Origin: Bacteroidota bacterium
GTDB lineage: Bacteria; Bacteroidota; Bacteroidia; Bacteroidales; UBA1556
NCBI GenBank assembly: GCA_003648395.1
Contig: QMPB01000122.1
Span: 1-9,656 of the forward strand
Length of the DNA stretch: 9,656 nt
Direction: 5' to 3'
Part shown: positions 3,701 through 9,656 of the stretch, piece by piece
How the letters are laid out: each line of letters begins with the position of its first letter
Position numbering within the stretch: position 1 is the first letter of the stretch
Notes under the pieces: model-generated
The model's input: only the letters and a program-made list of their open reading frames with translations
The model's database searches: none
Told to the model about the DNA's origin: nothing
Translations under genes and position numbers: made by a program

Positions 3701-5599
3701 ATGACTATTCCTCAATTATTTGAAAAAAGCGCAGCTAAGTTTCCAAATAACACTCTCGTTCTAGAAAAAGATAACTCTAGAGAGTATCAGAAAATTACAT
3801 ATTCACAAATAAAAAATAAAGTATATCAATTTAGTTGTGGACTAATTGAATTAGGTATAAAAAAAGGTGAACGGTTAGCTCTTCTATCAGAAGGTCGAAG
3901 TGAATGGCTAATCTCAGAACTTAGCATGCTATACCTTGGGGCTATTAATGTTCCTCTTTCTGTCAAAATAAATGAATTAAGTGACTTAAGTTTTAGAATA
4001 AAGCATAGTGAATGTAAATATATAGTAGTATCTGAACGCCAAATTGAGAAAGTAAGAAATATCATTAATCAACTACCTTTAGTAACGAAAGTAATTGTAA
4101 TTACTGATAGTGAAATTAAGTTAAACGATAATGAAATAGCATATAATGGAGTTCTTGAATTAGGTAAAAATATTTCTAATTATATAGACAAACTAAATGA
4201 TTCTTGGAAAAGCATTAATAATAATGACATAGCAAATATTAGTTATACTTCTGGAACAACTGCCGACCCTAAGGGTATCATGTTAACTCATAGAAACTAT
4301 ACAGCTAATGTTGAGCAAGCAAAAAGTCTTATTTCTATACCCGAGTACTATTCATCCTTACTAATATTACCTTGGGATCATTCATTTGGGCACACTGTTG
4401 GCTTATACACTTTGATTGATAATGGAGCAAGTCTTTCTGTAATAGAACTTGGAAAAACTCCAATGGAGACATTAAGAAATATCCCTAAAAACATTAAAGA
4501 AACTAAACCAACCTTTATATTAAGTGTACCAGCTCTTGCAAAAAACTTTAAAAAGAATATTGAGAAAAGCATTAAAGATAAAGGTTCTAAAGTTGAAAAA
4601 TTATTTAATAATGCTCTTGAACTTGCATATAAGTATAATGGTATTGGTTGGGATAAAGGGAAAAATGGCAATTTTATTGACAAACTTAAACTAAAACTAT
4701 ATGATAAAATATTATTCTCAAAGATAAGAGATGGTTTTGGTGGTAAATTAGAGTTTTTTATTGGTGGTGGTGCATTACTAGATATAGAACTTCAAAAGTT
4801 TTTCTATGCCATAGGTATTCCAATGTTTCAAGGTTATGGACTATCCGAATCTGCTCCCATTATTTCATCGAATGCCCCTTTGAAGCATAAGTTAGGGTCT
4901 TCTGGCTTTATTGTTAAAAATCTTGATTTAAAAATATGTGATAGCAAAGGAAATGAATTACCTATTGGCGAAAAAGGAGAGATAGTAGTTAAAGGTGAGA
5001 ATATAATGAAAGGTTATTGGAATAATGAAACAGCTACTAATGAAGCTCTACAAGGAGGATGGTTATTTACTGGCGATATGGGATATATGGATAACGATGG
5101 CTTTTTATACGTTCTTGGCCGATTTAAAAGTCTACTTATTGGAAATGATGGGGAAAAATACAGCCCTGAAGGTATTGAAGAAGCTCTTGTTGAACAATCT
5201 AATTGTATTGAACAAGTTATGCTATATAACAATCAGAACAACTACACTTCTGCTCTTATTTACCCAAATAAATCATACTTAATAAATAAATTAAAAGACA
5301 AGAACCTAGATATTAAAACTAAAGAAGGAGCTGTTGCTGCATTAAGAATAATTCAAGTTGAAATAGATCATTATTTACCTGATGGCAAATATGAAACCAT
5401 GTTCCCTCATAGATGGATTCCTGCAGCATTTGGTGTGCTAGATGAAGGCTTTACTGAAGAAAACAGATTACTTAACTCTACAATGAAAATGGTTAGAGGA
5501 AAAGTAGAAGAAAAATATCAAGACTATATTGAATATCTCAATTCTCCAGAAGGAAAAAATATTATTAATGAAAGAAATATTAAGAATATGACCTCATAG
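3701..5599 (+). CDS. Long-chain fatty acid-CoA ligase (AMP-forming, FadD/ACSL type)
   Basis: This enzyme would activate fatty acids with ATP to acyl-AMP and then to acyl-CoA in the cytoplasm, for lipid synthesis or degradation. All core motifs of the ANL (acyl-CoA synthetase/luciferase) superfamily are present in order: the P-loop YTSGTTADPKG (182-192), GYGLSES (378-384), the hinge region TGDMGYMD...GFLYVLGR (457-474) with Asp459 and Arg474, and NSTMKMVR near the C-terminus, with K596 as the probable adenylation lysine. At 632 residues, and with the ETKPTFILSVPAL segment, it fits bacterial long-chain acyl-CoA synthetases rather than acetyl-CoA synthetases. The P-loop has Ala where many family members have Gly (TSGTTG); I recall this variant in Bacteroidota homologues and expect it to be active. 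There is no signal peptide. No TAnnTTTG element was found in the 108-base upstream gap. It stands alone, converging with the TonB-dependent receptor gene. Chain-length preference cannot be read from the sequence. Confidence 0.9.
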   Translation: MTIPQLFEKSAAKFPNNTLVLEKDNSREYQKITYSQIKNKVYQFSCGLIELGIKKGERLALLSEGRSEWLISELSMLYLGAINVPLSVKINELSDLSFRIKHSECKYIVVSERQIEKVRNIINQLPLVTKVIVITDSEIKLNDNEIAYNGVLELGKNISNYIDKLNDSWKSINNNDIANISYTSGTTADPKGIMLTHRNYTANVEQAKSLISIPEYYSSLLILPWDHSFGHTVGLYTLIDNGASLSVIELGKTPMETLRNIPKNIKETKPTFILSVPALAKNFKKNIEKSIKDKGSKVEKLFNNALELAYKYNGIGWDKGKNGNFIDKLKLKLYDKILFSKIRDGFGGKLEFFIGGGALLDIELQKFFYAIGIPMFQGYGLSESAPIISSNAPLKHKLGSSGFIVKNLDLKICDSKGNELPIGEKGEIVVKGENIMKGYWNNETATNEALQGGWLFTGDMGYMDNDGFLYVLGRFKSLLIGNDGEKYSPEGIEEALVEQSNCIEQVMLYNNQNNYTSALIYPNKSYLINKLKDKNLDIKTKEGAVAALRIIQVEIDHYLPDGKYETMFPHRWIPAAFGVLDEGFTEENRLLNSTMKMVRGKVEEKYQDYIEYLNSPEGKNIINERNIKNMTS

Positions 5600-5713: not shown

Positions 5714-8062
5714 TTAGAATGTCAAGCTAATACCCAATGATGGCATAAATGGCAATTGGTCAACTCTCTGATTAGTAACTCTATCAATATAAAAGATATT
5801 ATTCCTATTATAAGCATTAGTTATACTAAATGATATTTCTAAGATAGACCTTTCACTAAAATATACTTTCTTTTTAACTCCAACATCCATTCTATGATAA
5901 TCAGGAAGACGTTTACTATTAATAGCACCATACACTATCCCAACATCACCATTTGAACTTGTATAATCAGTGCCTATACCATCTTCATAAAAATTAACAA
6001 TTTCATAATTTCCTGCTGTTGGTGTAAACGGAAAACCCGAACCATAATTCCATCTAATATTAGCTTCCCAAAGTCTTTTCTTTCCAAAAGAATAAGTTGC
6101 AAGAAAATTTACATTATGTCTTCTATCAAAATGAGGTATATAATTAACGTATCCATCATATCTATGATTAAAAGCAAGAGAATAAACAAACCAAACATAA
6201 AATCTTTTATCTTGATATTTTAAAGAAAAGTCAAAGCCTTCTGCATCACCTGTTTCTATTATAAAGTCTTTCTTTAATACATCTGGTTTATCTTGATATT
6301 CCTTAGTATCATTAAATATTTTGTTCTTATTCATATTAGTAAGTTGATTAAACCACTTATAATATCCTTCAAGATTAACAGTAATTCTAGAATTCAAATC
6401 ATATTCAAAGCCAGCAATTACATGAGTCGACTTTTGTAATTTATGAGTTAATTCTTCACCATCAAAAGATTTCTGGAGATTATCAGGTCCAGAAAGAAAA
6501 CCATAGAATAAATTAACAACATCCCTATCGGATGAAGAGCTAATAATATTTTGTGAATATAGACCTGTTGCCGCTTTTAACCTAAAGAATGGTGTAACAT
6601 TGTATTTCATAGAAAGCCTTGGTTCAAAAGACATATTATCTAAAGAGGCATAATAATGCAGACGCAAACCTGGAACAATAATAAATCTATTAATTGTTTG
6701 TCCATTTTTCCTAAACTTCTTTTCACCAAACATAAATCTACCCGAAAAATATCCAGCTAGTTCAGTTGTCGACTCTTTTTGATATATCAATCTATTCAAT
6801 GAGTTACTGAAACGGAAATCTGTCTGAAAACCTTTCATTTCCACACCATATAATAACCTATTCTTACCCAAGAAATAAGTAAAATCAAGCCCCATATTAA
6901 AGCCACCTACCTCACTACTTCTTGGTGTACTCGACCCATCATTTAGCTGAATAATATAATCAGAATACGAAATCTTTCCAGAAAATAGCATTGGTGAACT
7001 TCCTGGAACTACAGTAAATTTCATACCGCCACCAAAAGAATTCCATTCATAATTATTTATTGTCTGATAGCTTACTTGGTCATTAAAACTAAAGCCAAAA
7101 ACATCTGCCCTATTACCATTATTTCCATTAAATGAAACTTTTCCATAGAAATCAGCAAAAGTAAAAGGTAGTCCATCCCCGTTATTTACATATTTATAGA
7201 TAGTGTTAGAGGTCTTATCAATATAAGATTTCTTTGCTGATAAAACATATGTTATGCTTCCTGAATTTTCATCTTTTTGTTTCAATATAGGACCTTCCAA
7301 TAAGAATTTTGTACCGAATGTACTAAAATTCACTTTACCTGCAAATCTATTAGGGTTTCCATATCTAGTCGTAACATCCATAACAGAAGAAATTCTCCCT
7401 CCATATTCTGCGCCAAAGCCCCCAGTATAAACGCTTGCATTACTTATTAAATCAACATCAAATACTGAGAATAAGCCAATAGAATGAAAAGGGTTATAAA
7501 TAATCATGCCATCAAGTAGAACTAGGTTTTGCACAGGAGTTCCACCCCTAATATACAATTGACCTCCTTGATCTCCTGTAAAAACCACTCCAGGAACAAC
7601 CTGCAAATATTGAGCAAAGTCTGCTTCGCCTCCAATTGTTGGAATTCTACTAATACCTTTTGCGGTTACTTTAACAACCGAAGTAGTAGGATCTAATAAT
7701 GCTGTCTGTCGTTCAGCAGAGATTGTTGCCCCTGCCAATTCATATGACGCTTGCTTAAGATACAACTTTTTATTAATAATCCCATTCTCTTTGACAACAA
7801 CATTTGTCTTAAGTGTATCAAATCCAACATAACTAACTGTTAGGATATATCTACCTACGGGTATTTTTGTAATAGTAAAATATCCATTAATATCAGTAAC
7901 TGCTCCATGTGCTGTTCCTTCTAAATATACGTTTGTGTATAACACTGGCTGGCCACTAGACTTCTCATAAACAGCACCTCTAATAGTACCATTCTGAGCA
8001 TAAGCATTACTTCCTAAAAAAATAAATAATACTATAACTGCTGATTGTATAACTCGTATCAT
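5714..8062 (-). CDS. TonB-dependent receptor with N-terminal carboxypeptidase-regulatory-like domain
   Basis: This 782-residue outer-membrane protein would import or handle a ligand using TonB-ExbBD energy. Residues 1-22 are a signal peptide (cleavage after AYA). About 25-103 form a CarboxypepD_reg-like beta-sandwich (GTIRGAVYEKSSGQPV...TNVYLEGT...GAVTDINGYFTI...GRYILTVSYVGF). The plug spans about 115-232, with DFAQYLQVVPGV, QLYIRGG, LVLLDGMIIYNPFH and SVYTGGFGAEYGGR. The rest is a long beta-barrel ending in LGISLTF, with a C-terminal Phe as expected for BAM-dependent assembly. I see no clear TonB box, though these are poorly conserved. The protein is shorter than usual SusC glycan porins (about 1000 residues) and no SusD-like lipoprotein gene is adjacent, so a polysaccharide-utilization role is unlikely. 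The substrate is unknown. Its own candidate promoter and the upstream terminator suggest single-gene transcription. The ATG at 8062 fits the signal peptide well. Confidence 0.9.
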   Translation of the reverse strand: MIRVIQSAVIVLFIFLGSNAYAQNGTIRGAVYEKSSGQPVLYTNVYLEGTAHGAVTDINGYFTITKIPVGRYILTVSYVGFDTLKTNVVVKENGIINKKLYLKQASYELAGATISAERQTALLDPTTSVVKVTAKGISRIPTIGGEADFAQYLQVVPGVVFTGDQGGQLYIRGGTPVQNLVLLDGMIIYNPFHSIGLFSVFDVDLISNASVYTGGFGAEYGGRISSVMDVTTRYGNPNRFAGKVNFSTFGTKFLLEGPILKQKDENSGSITYVLSAKKSYIDKTSNTIYKYVNNGDGLPFTFADFYGKVSFNGNNGNRADVFGFSFNDQVSYQTINNYEWNSFGGGMKFTVVPGSSPMLFSGKISYSDYIIQLNDGSSTPRSSEVGGFNMGLDFTYFLGKNRLLYGVEMKGFQTDFRFSNSLNRLIYQKESTTELAGYFSGRFMFGEKKFRKNGQTINRFIIVPGLRLHYYASLDNMSFEPRLSMKYNVTPFFRLKAATGLYSQNIISSSSDRDVVNLFYGFLSGPDNLQKSFDGEELTHKLQKSTHVIAGFEYDLNSRITVNLEGYYKWFNQLTNMNKNKIFNDTKEYQDKPDVLKKDFIIETGDAEGFDFSLKYQDKRFYVWFVYSLAFNHRYDGYVNYIPHFDRRHNVNFLATYSFGKKRLWEANIRWNYGSGFPFTPTAGNYEIVNFYEDGIGTDYTSSNGDVGIVYGAINSKRLPDYHRMDVGVKKKVYFSERSILEISFSITNAYNRNNIFYIDRVTNQRVDQLPFMPSLGISLTF

Positions 8063-8092
8063 TAAAATATATTACTGTGTGTGTATTGATGC

Positions 8093-8100
8093 CAAATGTA
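8093..8100 (-). promoter_or_regulatory. Candidate -7 promoter element for the TonB-dependent receptor gene
   Basis: On the minus strand this reads TACATTTG, an exact TAnnTTTG match, about 30 bases upstream of the ATG at 8062. It is downstream of the terminator that closes the preceding operon, which is where a promoter for this gene should be. No TTG was found at 17-23 base spacing. Confidence 0.45.
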
Positions 8101-8120
8101 TAAAATAAACAGCTGTAAAA

Positions 8121-8152
8121 TAAAAAAAGTTGCACTAAGTACAACTTTTTTA
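8121..8152 (-). terminator. Rho-independent terminator closing the siaB-siaC operon
   Basis: The arms AGTTGCAC (8128-8135) and GTACAACT (8139-8146) form an 8-pair stem with one G-U pair and a 3-base loop. An A-run (8122-8127) and a T-run flank it, so it could act in either direction. On the minus strand it lies about 20 bases past the stop codon of the membrane protein gene at 8172 and before the receptor promoter. Confidence 0.82.
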
Positions 8153-8171
8153 TAAATATTAATATCAAAAT

Positions 8172-8690
8172 CTATTTTGCTACTTTAGCATCTTCTAATT
8201 GTTTCTTTCGAGCTTTCTTAAGCATATATTTATTAGCAAAATCCTCACCTGGTTTAATTAATATTGCAACTATTAGCTTTAATCCTAAACCAACCCAAAA
8301 ATTATCAGGAAAAGCACGATCAATAATTGGTTCAATAAAAGCTTCTGAAATAATAAAAAGACCAATAGCAATAAACATTACAATAGTGCTCGCTCTTCTA
8401 CCAATTTTAGCTTCAGTAAGTTGGTCAATAGTTTCGTTTAATTGATTATTTAAATCCGCTAATTGTGTATTAGAACTTTCAAGAGCTTCATTTGTTTTGT
8501 TAAGTTTTCTCTGAAGCCTATCACTAATACGAGTAATTATTTTTACTTGATCAATTAGTTCTTCATAATTCTCAACATTCTTCTTAAACTCCAATTGAAG
8601 TTCAAGTTTAGAGTATTCATTCTTTTTCAAGAATGCTTTACTTTGCTCTAAACTATCAACTTCACGCTGATATATACTCTGCTTAGCCAT
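8172..8690 (-). CDS. Coiled-coil protein with two membrane helices, putative output protein of the SiaB/SiaC switch
   Basis: I do not recognise a named family for this 172-residue protein. Residues about 10-97 are predicted helical and heptad-like, with a segment YEELIDQVKIITRISDRLQ (42-60) resembling the helical stalk that precedes catalytic domains in SiaC-regulated proteins such as diguanylate cyclases (from memory, not aligned). A Leu/Asn/Glu-rich coiled coil follows (67-93), then a basic patch KIGRR. Two hydrophobic helices (about 102-121 and 131-147) are joined by a short polar loop (EPIIDRAFPDN). The tail is Lys/Arg-rich (KKARKKQ). By the positive-inside rule both ends face the cytoplasm. 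There is no GGDEF, HATPase, phosphatase or cyclase domain. The gene is last in the operon, five bases after the siaC stop, so co-expression is near certain. Function is inferred from context: it may bind unphosphorylated SiaC at the membrane. A simple scaffold or structural role is equally possible. Confidence 0.7.
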   Translation of the reverse strand: MAKQSIYQREVDSLEQSKAFLKKNEYSKLELQLEFKKNVENYEELIDQVKIITRISDRLQRKLNKTNEALESSNTQLADLNNQLNETIDQLTEAKIGRRASTIVMFIAIGLFIISEAFIEPIIDRAFPDNFWVGLGLKLIVAILIKPGEDFANKYMLKKARKKQLEDAKVAK

Positions 8691-8695
8691 TAAAT

Positions 8696-9076
8696 TTATT
8701 CCTCGAAACCTATTATTTCAAACGTCAGACCACTTACATCCTCGTAATCTTCGCCCGTTTCCATCATCTCCTCATCGTCCTCCTCATAGTACCATTGAAC
8801 TAAAACATCTTTCCCATCTTTTAAAATACCTTTTAATCTTTTAAGAATTTCAAGAATATACTTAGATGAGCTAGTATTAAAGTATTCTAGATTAATCTTA
8901 GCAACTACTTTATCAGGAGCTTCCAAAGCATATGCGTCAAGCCAATTTAAAACTGGGTTAAAAAATTCAAATGTATTTTCAGGAATTGATCTACCACTTA
9001 GACTTAAAATACCAGAAGCTGCATCAAAATTTATTTCTGGAGTTTGTTTTGATCCTTCAATTATTAAATTATCCAT
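8696..9076 (-). CDS. siaC: SiaC-family regulatory phosphoprotein (DUF1987)
   Basis: This 126-residue cytoplasmic protein matches the SiaC/DUF1987 family in length and layout: an N-terminal TPEINFDAASGILSLSGRS strand pair, the ENTFEFFNPVLNWLDAY helix, the core NLEYFNTSSSKYILEIL, and an acidic segment after VQWYYEEDDEEM (94-105). In Pseudomonas aeruginosa, SiaC is phosphorylated on Thr68 by SiaB, and the unphosphorylated form binds and activates the diguanylate cyclase SiaD. Here the motif N67-T68-S69-S70 puts a threonine at exactly position 68. The upstream neighbour encodes a SiaB-like kinase (29-base gap) and the downstream one a membrane protein (5-base gap). No signal peptide or membrane segment is present. 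The family assignment is firm; the downstream partner in this organism is inferred. Confidence 0.92.
   Translation of the reverse strand: MDNLIIEGSKQTPEINFDAASGILSLSGRSIPENTFEFFNPVLNWLDAYALEAPDKVVAKINLEYFNTSSSKYILEILKRLKGILKDGKDVLVQWYYEEDDEEMMETGEDYEDVSGLTFEIIGFEE
8699..8704 (-). promoter_or_regulatory. Possible Shine-Dalgarno sequence for the membrane protein gene, inside the siaC end
   Basis: The minus strand reads GAGGAA eight bases before the ATG at 8690, overlapping the last two Glu codons of siaC. The spacing is right for a ribosome binding site, but such sites are uncommon in Bacteroidota and the bases are also explained by the Glu-Glu coding sequence. Confidence 0.3.
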
Positions 9077-9105
9077 TTTAATATGTTTATCTCGTGTTAA
9101 TATAT

Positions 9106-9654
9106 CTATTTGTCTCTCTTTTTTGCCACTTTAACCCTTAAATCAAAGAATGATAATTCATCATTTACTTTACTAAAGTTATATTCCAATTTCTGACCCG
9201 ACTTACGAGCCATATCAATCATACCTAAGTCAGCACCACCTTTATCAGAGATTTGATTATTGTCTAATATTTGACGATAATACTTTCTTAAATCATCTTT
9301 TGACAATGAATTGACTCGATCAATTCTATCTCTTAACGGTGGTATTTCTTCATTTCTAATGAAATTACCTGTCAAGATATAATAAAAATCATTATCATAG
9401 AACAGTTCAAGCATTGCTCTTCTAGTACTCACATCTCCAATAACTTCTGCTTCAGAATGGTGATAAAGATTTTGCATACACTCAACAAGAACATTAAATA
9501 TTCTTTTTTTAACACTGCCTTTTTCTGAAACAGAATCAAGCCTAGTTTCCATGATTTGTAAAACCATTGTAATAATGTCGGAAGTTATTTCACCCTTAAA
9601 AGATAACATAATATGGTTATCCATCATTCGGCGAAATTTTTCGTAAGCATTCAT
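9106..9654 (-). CDS. siaB: SiaB-family protein kinase (DUF6272)
   Basis: This 182-residue cytoplasmic protein resembles SiaB kinases, which phosphorylate SiaC on a threonine. The beginning, NHIMLSFKGEITSDII (13-28), is family-like. A GHKL-type ATP-binding fold is suggested by an N-box, E58-C-M-Q-N62 (ExxxN) followed by LYHHS, and by a glycine-rich stretch DKGGADLGMIDMARKSG (137-153) resembling the GxGLG ATP-lid motif. No transmembrane or sensor domain is present, so the input signal must come from elsewhere, typically from a membrane PP2C/SpoIIE phosphatase (SiaA) that reverses the reaction. Such a gene would be expected just past the right edge. The start at 9654 has only two bases of sequence before it, so an earlier in-frame start cannot be excluded, although the N-terminus fits the family. 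The gene is transcribed leftward with siaC and the membrane protein gene. Confidence 0.85.
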   Translation of the reverse strand: MNAYEKFRRMMDNHIMLSFKGEITSDIITMVLQIMETRLDSVSEKGSVKKRIFNVLVECMQNLYHHSEAEVIGDVSTRRAMLELFYDNDFYYILTGNFIRNEEIPPLRDRIDRVNSLSKDDLRKYYRQILDNNQISDKGGADLGMIDMARKSGQKLEYNFSKVNDELSFFDLRVKVAKKRDK

Positions 9655-9656
9655 AT

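Follow-up and report, generated by a model that had tools for sequence, protein, structure and literature searches.

Organization of the siaB-siaC locus

The stretch of DNA analysed here (the window) comprises 9,656 nucleotides, positions 1 to 9,656 of contig QMPB01000122.1 in assembly GCA_003648395.1 of a Bacteroidota bacterium, and it carries at one end, on the minus strand, siaB, siaC, and a gene for a protein of 172 amino acids, referred to below as the stalk-hairpin protein. The features of the locus are as follows.

9106..9654, minus strand: gene of a SiaB-family protein kinase (NF038262 over cut-off); the window stops just past the siaB start
8696..9076, minus strand: siaC (PF09345), with the T68 codon at 8873-8875
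8172..8690, minus strand: stalk-hairpin gene, ATG start, 172 amino acids, last gene of the siaB-siaC unit
8628..8675, minus strand: N-terminal helix, residues 6-21 (AlphaFold2), with I6, Y7, E10, L14, and F20 conserved
8406..8609, minus strand: stalk helix, residues 28-95, running on into the first membrane helix (AlphaFold2; profile match to SiaC-operon stalks)
8490..8567, minus strand: predicted SiaC-docking motif, residues 42-67 (conservation; SiaD contact residues, PMC8457831; SiaD alignment)
8511-8534, minus strand: core of the docking motif, TRISDRLQ, residues 53-60, the most conserved segment examined
8328..8393, minus strand: membrane helix 1, residues about 100-121, with the end SEAFIEP (hydrophobic stretch; hydropathy of homologues; conservation)
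8250..8297, minus strand: membrane helix 2, residues about 132-147, with K138 and P147 invariant in alignment A2
8175..8249, minus strand: C-terminal basic tail, residues 148-172 (sequence; AlphaFold2 model)
8151-8123, minus strand: terminator-like hairpin, 3' of the stop of the stalk-hairpin gene

The window SiaC matches Pfam PF09345 above the cut-off (E 1.1e-41) and its alignment with P. aeruginosa SiaC (6kko) is gapless, N67, T68, and S69 all being in place; the window SiaB scores 157.8 bits against the NCBIfam profile NF038262 (cut-off 85). The cut-offs for P. aeruginosa-type equivalogs are missed by both (NF038265 for SiaC, 102.6 bits vs. 150; NF038264 for SiaB, 77.2 vs. 225), and on these profile scores the two proteins are family members and not P. 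aeruginosa-type equivalogs. The spacing is 29 bases from siaB to siaC and 5 bases from siaC to the stalk-hairpin gene, which is probably the last of the unit because the terminator-like site follows its stop; one such site occurs in 7900-9656, against a mean of 0.4 in shuffles. The sequence-only reading of this DNA had put the gene at the end of a siaB-siaC operon, and gene order, spacing, and the terminator-like site agree with that placement.

A SiaA-type gene upstream of siaB would lie beyond the edge of the window, which ends at siaB. Nine of 13 siaC-linked relatives have a long same-strand gene of similar C-terminal end at this place, SpoIIE is fused to SiaB in another (L101), two (L097 and L098) have a different neighbour and no SiaA-type gene beside siaB, and in the last (L099) the region is cut off by a contig edge. 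SpoIIE was identified by Pfam in all three loci tested for it (L001, L101, and L109), and the L001 protein has a propeller-Y_Y_Y-SpoIIE architecture with a predicted membrane stretch. The siaB neighbour in L097 lies on the opposite strand and encodes a PPDK_N protein (Pfam). On the other side of the unit, the next gene on the minus strand of the window is of the TonB-receptor type (5714-8062; Pfam); L001 also has such a gene after its stalk-hairpin gene (Pfam), and a gene of like size is found in L003, L096, and L098. A gene for an AMP-binding enzyme is near (3701-5599; Pfam), as it is, judged by the N-terminus, in the same three loci.

Anatomy of the stalk-hairpin protein

No Pfam or NCBIfam family is matched above its cut-off by the 172-residue protein, in which neither a catalytic domain nor a GGDEF match was found. 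An AlphaFold2 model computed with 33 sequences (mean pLDDT 79.8, pTM 0.39) places helices at residues 6-21, 28-126, and 131-171; in this model the stalk and the first membrane segment are one unbroken helix, and the second long helix is made up of the other membrane segment and the basic tail. The description of the protein, made earlier from the letters of the sequence, as ending in two membrane helices and a basic tail with no catalytic domain is thus borne out by the model, the sequence, and the Pfam/NCBIfam searches. The short N-terminal helix, which that description did not include, recalls the N-terminal helices that pack against the stalk in SiaD, according to the available text of PMC8457831.

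A protein search returned 85 proteins including the window's own, and 84 were aligned with the window protein, the partial P0085 being left out. In 20 rows below 75% identity, the mean majority fraction falls from 0.96 for residues 53-60 to 0.73 in the first and 0.71 in the second membrane helix, with the N-terminal helix (0.60) and the tail (0.52) lower still. The YEELIDQ...ITRISDRLQ segment noted previously is present at residues 42-48 and 52-60, and it therefore contains the best conserved stretch examined. In the same rows, E116 is conserved at 0.90 and E120, P121, K138, A142, K146, P147, and E149 at 0.95 or above.

Relation of the stalk to the SiaC-docking stalk of SiaD

In Pseudomonas, SiaC is phosphorylated on T68 by SiaB and dephosphorylated by SiaA, and phosphorylation of T68 prevents SiaC from binding to SiaD, as stated in the available parts of two reports (PMC8457831; PMC7647112). 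Crystals of the SiaC-SiaD complex show T68 of SiaC inserted between the stalk helices and bonded to S82 and Q86 of SiaD, of which R80, I81, D83, R84, Y85, and M88 likewise contact SiaC (PMC8457831). Members of the SiaB and SiaC families are found in both the P. aeruginosa system (7e6g; PMC8457831) and the window, as are T68 flanked by N67 and S69, the RISDRxQ pattern in a stalk, and an effector gene 3' of siaC. The SiaD contacts R80, I81, S82, D83, R84, and Q86 correspond at the same spacing to R54, I55, S56, D57, R58, and Q60 of the window stalk, so that S, D, and Q are present at the equivalents of SiaD 82, 83, and 86. The systems differ in their outputs, GGDEF in SiaD and a two-helix membrane hairpin in the window protein, and in the number of docking motifs, two in SiaD, which forms a 2:4 complex, and a single one read in the sequence of the window stalk, a feature that the sequence-only reading had not remarked on; because there is one motif per stalk, a complex of SiaC with the window stalk would probably be 2:2. 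Several charged contacts are also changed relative to P. aeruginosa, with D79, R103, and D114 replaced by K, E, and V, respectively, in the window SiaC.

Similarity between the window stalk and stalks bound by SiaC had been suggested from the motif, and profile comparisons make it clear for the catalytic stalks of SiaC operons, which in turn match SiaD. A profile of hairpin-type stalks (A3, 16 rows) was aligned with a profile of catalytic stalks from siaC operons (A4, 15 rows, of which 11 had first been met as siaC neighbours and four, from L057, L059, L075, and L082, through the hairpin-family profile A2), and the two align in register with an hhalign probability of 99.2 and E 2.8e-19. Searched against 177,635 PDB sequences, A4 gives SiaD (7e6g) as its best match (E 3e-5), with both SiaC-binding motifs covered, whereas A3 gives SiaD as a weak match at rank 4 of 17 (E 0.33), with a phi29 gp7-FtsB fusion ahead of it at 0.0017. 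In single-sequence searches of the PDB, SiaD was not found with the window protein and was likewise missed with one catalytic stalk of 91 amino acids. Against the NCBIfam SiaD profile (NF038266), the window protein reaches 3.8e-5 and 23.2 bits, far below the cut-off of 290 and with its stalk part only. Since the hairpin-type stalk by itself matches SiaD weakly, its link to SiaD is transitive and runs through the catalytic stalks.

The strongest test of stalk homology is the search with A4 of six-frame translations of 14 genomes, none of which contributed rows to that profile: 15 places were found at E ≤ 0.001 (E 1.8e-9 to 8e-18), and all of them are stalk-hairpin genes. Weak matches of long coiled coils to many families are common, and the protein could on that account be an unrelated coiled-coil membrane protein whose likeness to the SiaD stalk is due to chance and whose siaC linkage has other reasons. 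Such a coincidence is highly improbable: in 200 heptad-block shuffles, which keep the coiled-coil character, the mean profile score was 30.5 and the maximum 68.6 against an observed 98.9, with none of the 200 reaching it; A4 singles out the stalk-hairpin gene in whole genomes; and conservation is concentrated in the contact motif instead of extending over the whole stalk. Of 2702 ORFs in the loci collected, 37 contain the strict string [RK][IV]SD[RK]xQ, and all 37 are matches of the stalk profile, with the qualification that overlapping loci cause copies to be counted repeatedly and that the profile was built from those loci. By these profile comparisons, the window stalk is homologous to the SiaC-operon stalks beyond the coiled-coil background.

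Covariation of contact pairs was considered as additional support and dropped, as the residues track SiaC ancestry. The set comprised 33 SiaC-stalk pairs, one from Pseudomonas, one from the window, and 31 from the linked loci described below (33 in all, less L028 and L029, on which the motif pattern failed), and ten position pairs (SiaC/stalk) were tried. At 114/77, charged or polar residues are replaced by hydrophobic ones in hairpin pairs (shuffle p 0.08); the values were 0.0004 for 79/77, 0.012 for 103/87, 0.058 for 114/74, 0.11 for 79/74, 0.12 for 103/91, and 0.94 for 103/90, and the pairs 110/84, 110/80, and 107/88 were uninformative (p 1). The change at stalk position 77, which matches the altered SiaC contacts, tracks SiaC ancestry, and I or L at SiaC 114 is also found in SiaC proteins preceding ABC-type genes, where no stalk was found by the stalk profile; the changed contacts are therefore not independent evidence of docking.

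Linkage of stalk genes to siaC and diversity of their output domains

Full-length stalk-hairpin genes number 15, in 14 genomes, and 13 of the 15 lie directly 3' of siaC, at distances of -14 to 19 bases (11 of 13 without L013 and L039, which were first met through siaC), which upholds the earlier expectation of siaC linkage across genomes. The genomes of the two unlinked genes (L007 in G007 and L055 in G532) do contain siaC, at another place, and the single SiaC of G532 clusters among hairpin-type SiaCs in the tree. All 14 stalk-hairpin genomes have siaC, against 22 of 395 in the phylum sample. When A2 was run on these 395 genomes, 15 had a match to the stalk part and 14 of the 15 had SiaC (hypergeometric p 2e-19, with kinship ignored). 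The matches fall in 27 places, of which 17 directly adjoin siaC and 10 do not; among the latter, one primase gene lies between siaC and the stalk in L083 and L084 (a call made by Pfam in L105 and by an identical N-terminus in L107), seven lie in genomes that do have SiaC but on a different contig, and one (L072) comes from a genome in which SiaC was not found, such absences being soft as most of the genomes are drafts.

Viewed from siaC, 33 of the 34 genes found in the phylum sample were examined: 20 have a stalk gene no more than 200 bases 3' of them, one has it farther off, and for the other 12 there is no stalk gene in the stretch examined (in one of the twelve, L047, it is one gene farther on). 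Across all loci, a stalk gene follows 33 of 73 distinct SiaC genes, in a set enriched by the manner of its collection. The 33 linked stalks are joined to the hairpin in 13 cases (by profile A2), HisKA and HATPase in five, GGDEF in four (including a short piece in L026), Guanylate_cyc in four, and SpoIIE in three, and four are stalks alone, with catalytic outputs assigned by Pfam and the stalk-alone class by length. The SpoIIE-type stalks with which comparison had been proposed do exist and are homologous (L032, L034, and L057). In these other Bacteroidota proteins, the stalk is homologous, in register, and in the same position behind siaC as in the window protein, but it carries a catalytic domain or none where the window protein has its hairpin. 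Because the same stalk is joined to differing output domains, it behaves as an exchangeable docking module.

Literature on the SiaABCD system, as far as its text was available, concerns P. aeruginosa, where SiaABC is presented as a c-di-GMP switch of Pseudomonas, and SiaABCD has been cited as a system in which phosphatase/kinase signalling and c-di-GMP signalling are merged (PMC9239204, available in part). In the accessible text of this literature, which took in few or no subscription papers and preprints, no membrane-hairpin or other non-GGDEF SiaC client is described. The available text of PMC8457831 suggests in general terms that DUF1987 proteins modulate adjacent proteins, and the siaC-linked stalk proteins make that suggestion concrete.

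The membrane hairpin as a probable output module

Searches for GGDEF found none in 13 of the 14 stalk-hairpin genomes and one in G167 (the control of the search was positive in 8 of 14 known genomes), and c-di-GMP is therefore hardly the output in these genomes; by extension from these 14 other genomes, an output that does not involve c-di-GMP would be expected in the window's own genome as well. In the A4 search, no stalk client of another type was found at E ≤ 0.001 in any of the 14. This result, together with the scarcity of GGDEF, disfavours the earlier suggestion that the protein is a decoy titrating SiaC off another stalk-bearing effector, which is now very doubtful; in its favour, some other siaC genomes do have several stalk proteins, some of them next to siaC and others apart from it.

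The hairpin recurs behind inputs other than the stalk, namely, behind a receiver domain (P0086/L056, 10 member sequences on 4 contigs) and behind TPRs (L063, L064, and P0090, the last as P0090/L063), and G219 and G030, two genomes with hairpins of this kind, have no SiaC match. Weaker matches (E 8.0e-7 to 2.7e-5) place it at the end of the TPR proteins L142-L144 and of the Y_Y_Y propeller protein L058, which, unlike the window protein, have a further membrane helix. All these proteins share with the window protein the same or a similar two-helix hairpin, in which helix 1 ends with an E..(E)P region and helix 2 contains a conserved P, and they differ from it in their input, which is a receiver, TPR, or propeller region and not a SiaC stalk. 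Across inputs, A100, F112, P147, and E149 are invariant in 14 hairpin rows, including four from proteins with these other inputs. L142, L143, and L144 are TPR-rich by eye and have a signal-like start, and their hairpin stands where one might look for a kinase domain. In P0085, on a short contig, the second half of the hairpin and the tail are joined to TPR repeats, which may be a real fusion or an assembly artefact.

The structure described previously as a membrane anchor is a two-helix hairpin, but to call it an anchor alone is probably too modest because it also ends receiver, TPR, and propeller proteins; on comparative grounds, it is probably a membrane output module. A passive role would make the hairpin an anchor only, with the stalk keeping unphosphorylated SiaC near the SiaA phosphatase or another client and so making the switch sharper or faster. 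Such a dock would fit a protein without a catalytic domain, the membrane stretch predicted in the SpoIIE protein of L001, by which phosphatase and stalk would share the membrane, and the stalk-only proteins of 77-99 amino acids behind siaC, which indicate that a stalk can be encoded with no effector domain in its chain. It is nevertheless rather unlikely, since a mere anchor would need none of E120, P121, K138, K146, P147, and E149, which are kept among 20 diverse stalk-hairpin proteins, since P147 and E149 are retained in hairpins under other inputs, and since no second type of stalk client was found in the 14 genomes.

Fold searches with the whole model and with the hairpin alone gave no match with E < 0.001. 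MCU, which appeared only among weak helical matches, is a two-helix channel that resembles the window protein in general arrangement only (stalk helix into the first membrane helix, short outer loop, second membrane helix), with no significant fold match between the two. CorA is a further two-helix channel with a cytoplasmic helical stalk continuous with the first membrane helix, a short outer loop, and a second membrane helix.

Proposed mechanism

The preferred reading, to which a probability of about 0.7 is given, is that the 172-residue protein is the output of a SiaABC partner switch, in which a two-helix membrane hairpin takes the place of an effector enzyme. A SiaA-type phosphatase would strip the phosphate from T68 of SiaC and SiaB would restore it; unphosphorylated SiaC would dock through N67-T68-S69 on S56, D57, and Q60 of the stalk, and docking would order and pair the stalk helices, as for SiaD. 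Because the stalk continues unbroken into the first membrane helix, docking could be relayed to the hairpin, whose membrane state would then change: it might assemble, open, or come into contact with a partner in the membrane. The hairpin would in that case be a new way of carrying a phospho-signal straight into the membrane.

A broader proposal, advanced tentatively and at somewhat less than even odds, has three parts. The SiaC stalk would be a general plug through which one Ser/Thr phospho-switch can serve interchangeable outputs, from GGDEF, nucleotide cyclase, histidine kinase, and phosphatase domains to a stalk-only adaptor and the membrane hairpin. The hairpin would be a membrane output domain not described before, possibly a channel built of several subunits (a channel-like assembly had been among the roles raised in the sequence-only reading), which in Bacteroidota is also placed under receiver, TPR, or propeller control. 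Dephosphorylation of SiaC would then gate the membrane by itself, and no second messenger would be involved. Should the stalk prove to be a portable docking module, many SiaC operons that now lack annotation would become readable, with the motif pointing to the client and the attached domain to the output.

Other SiaC clients and variant SiaC proteins

In nine further genomes searched with A3 at E ≤ 0.01, no stalk was found in six, of which five have SiaC (the sixth is G031), and SiaC must therefore have clients of other kinds too. Ten SiaC genes (L009, L010, L015, L017, L035, L037, L038, L124, L125, and L127) precede a gene with an ABC-ATPase domain, identified by Pfam in all ten, whose product starts with MSE(E/D)ILKA.. 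or similar, and the stalk profile finds nothing at these loci. All ten SiaC proteins have A69 in place of S69, and because N-T-A replaces N-T-S a different client interface is likely; A69 is also present in some other SiaC proteins without a stalk neighbour. Stalk-bearing nucleotide cyclases and histidine kinases away from siaC (L069, L072, L079, L081, and L086-L089) are possible further clients. Two profile matches, a low-complexity repeat (L060, G666) and the coiled coil of a receiver-kinase (L061, G418), were dismissed as chance.

Stand-alone stalk proteins are encoded directly 3' of siaC in L028, L029, L040, and L045 (L028, L029, and L045 recur as L077, L085, and L076), and SiaC at these loci has S68 in place of T68. 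In L028, L040, and L045, the stand-alone stalk is followed by a protein of ~400 amino acids, with weak TPR matches below the cut-off in L028 and none at 1e-5 in L040 and L045. Three long SiaC ORFs were examined, and no natural SiaC-stalk fusion was found among them: L160:736-2271 is a single SiaB-SiaB-SiaC chain, and L161:1439-2290 and L162:381-1181 are SiaC-SiaC tandems. All three belong to genome G469, which has 21 SiaC matches.
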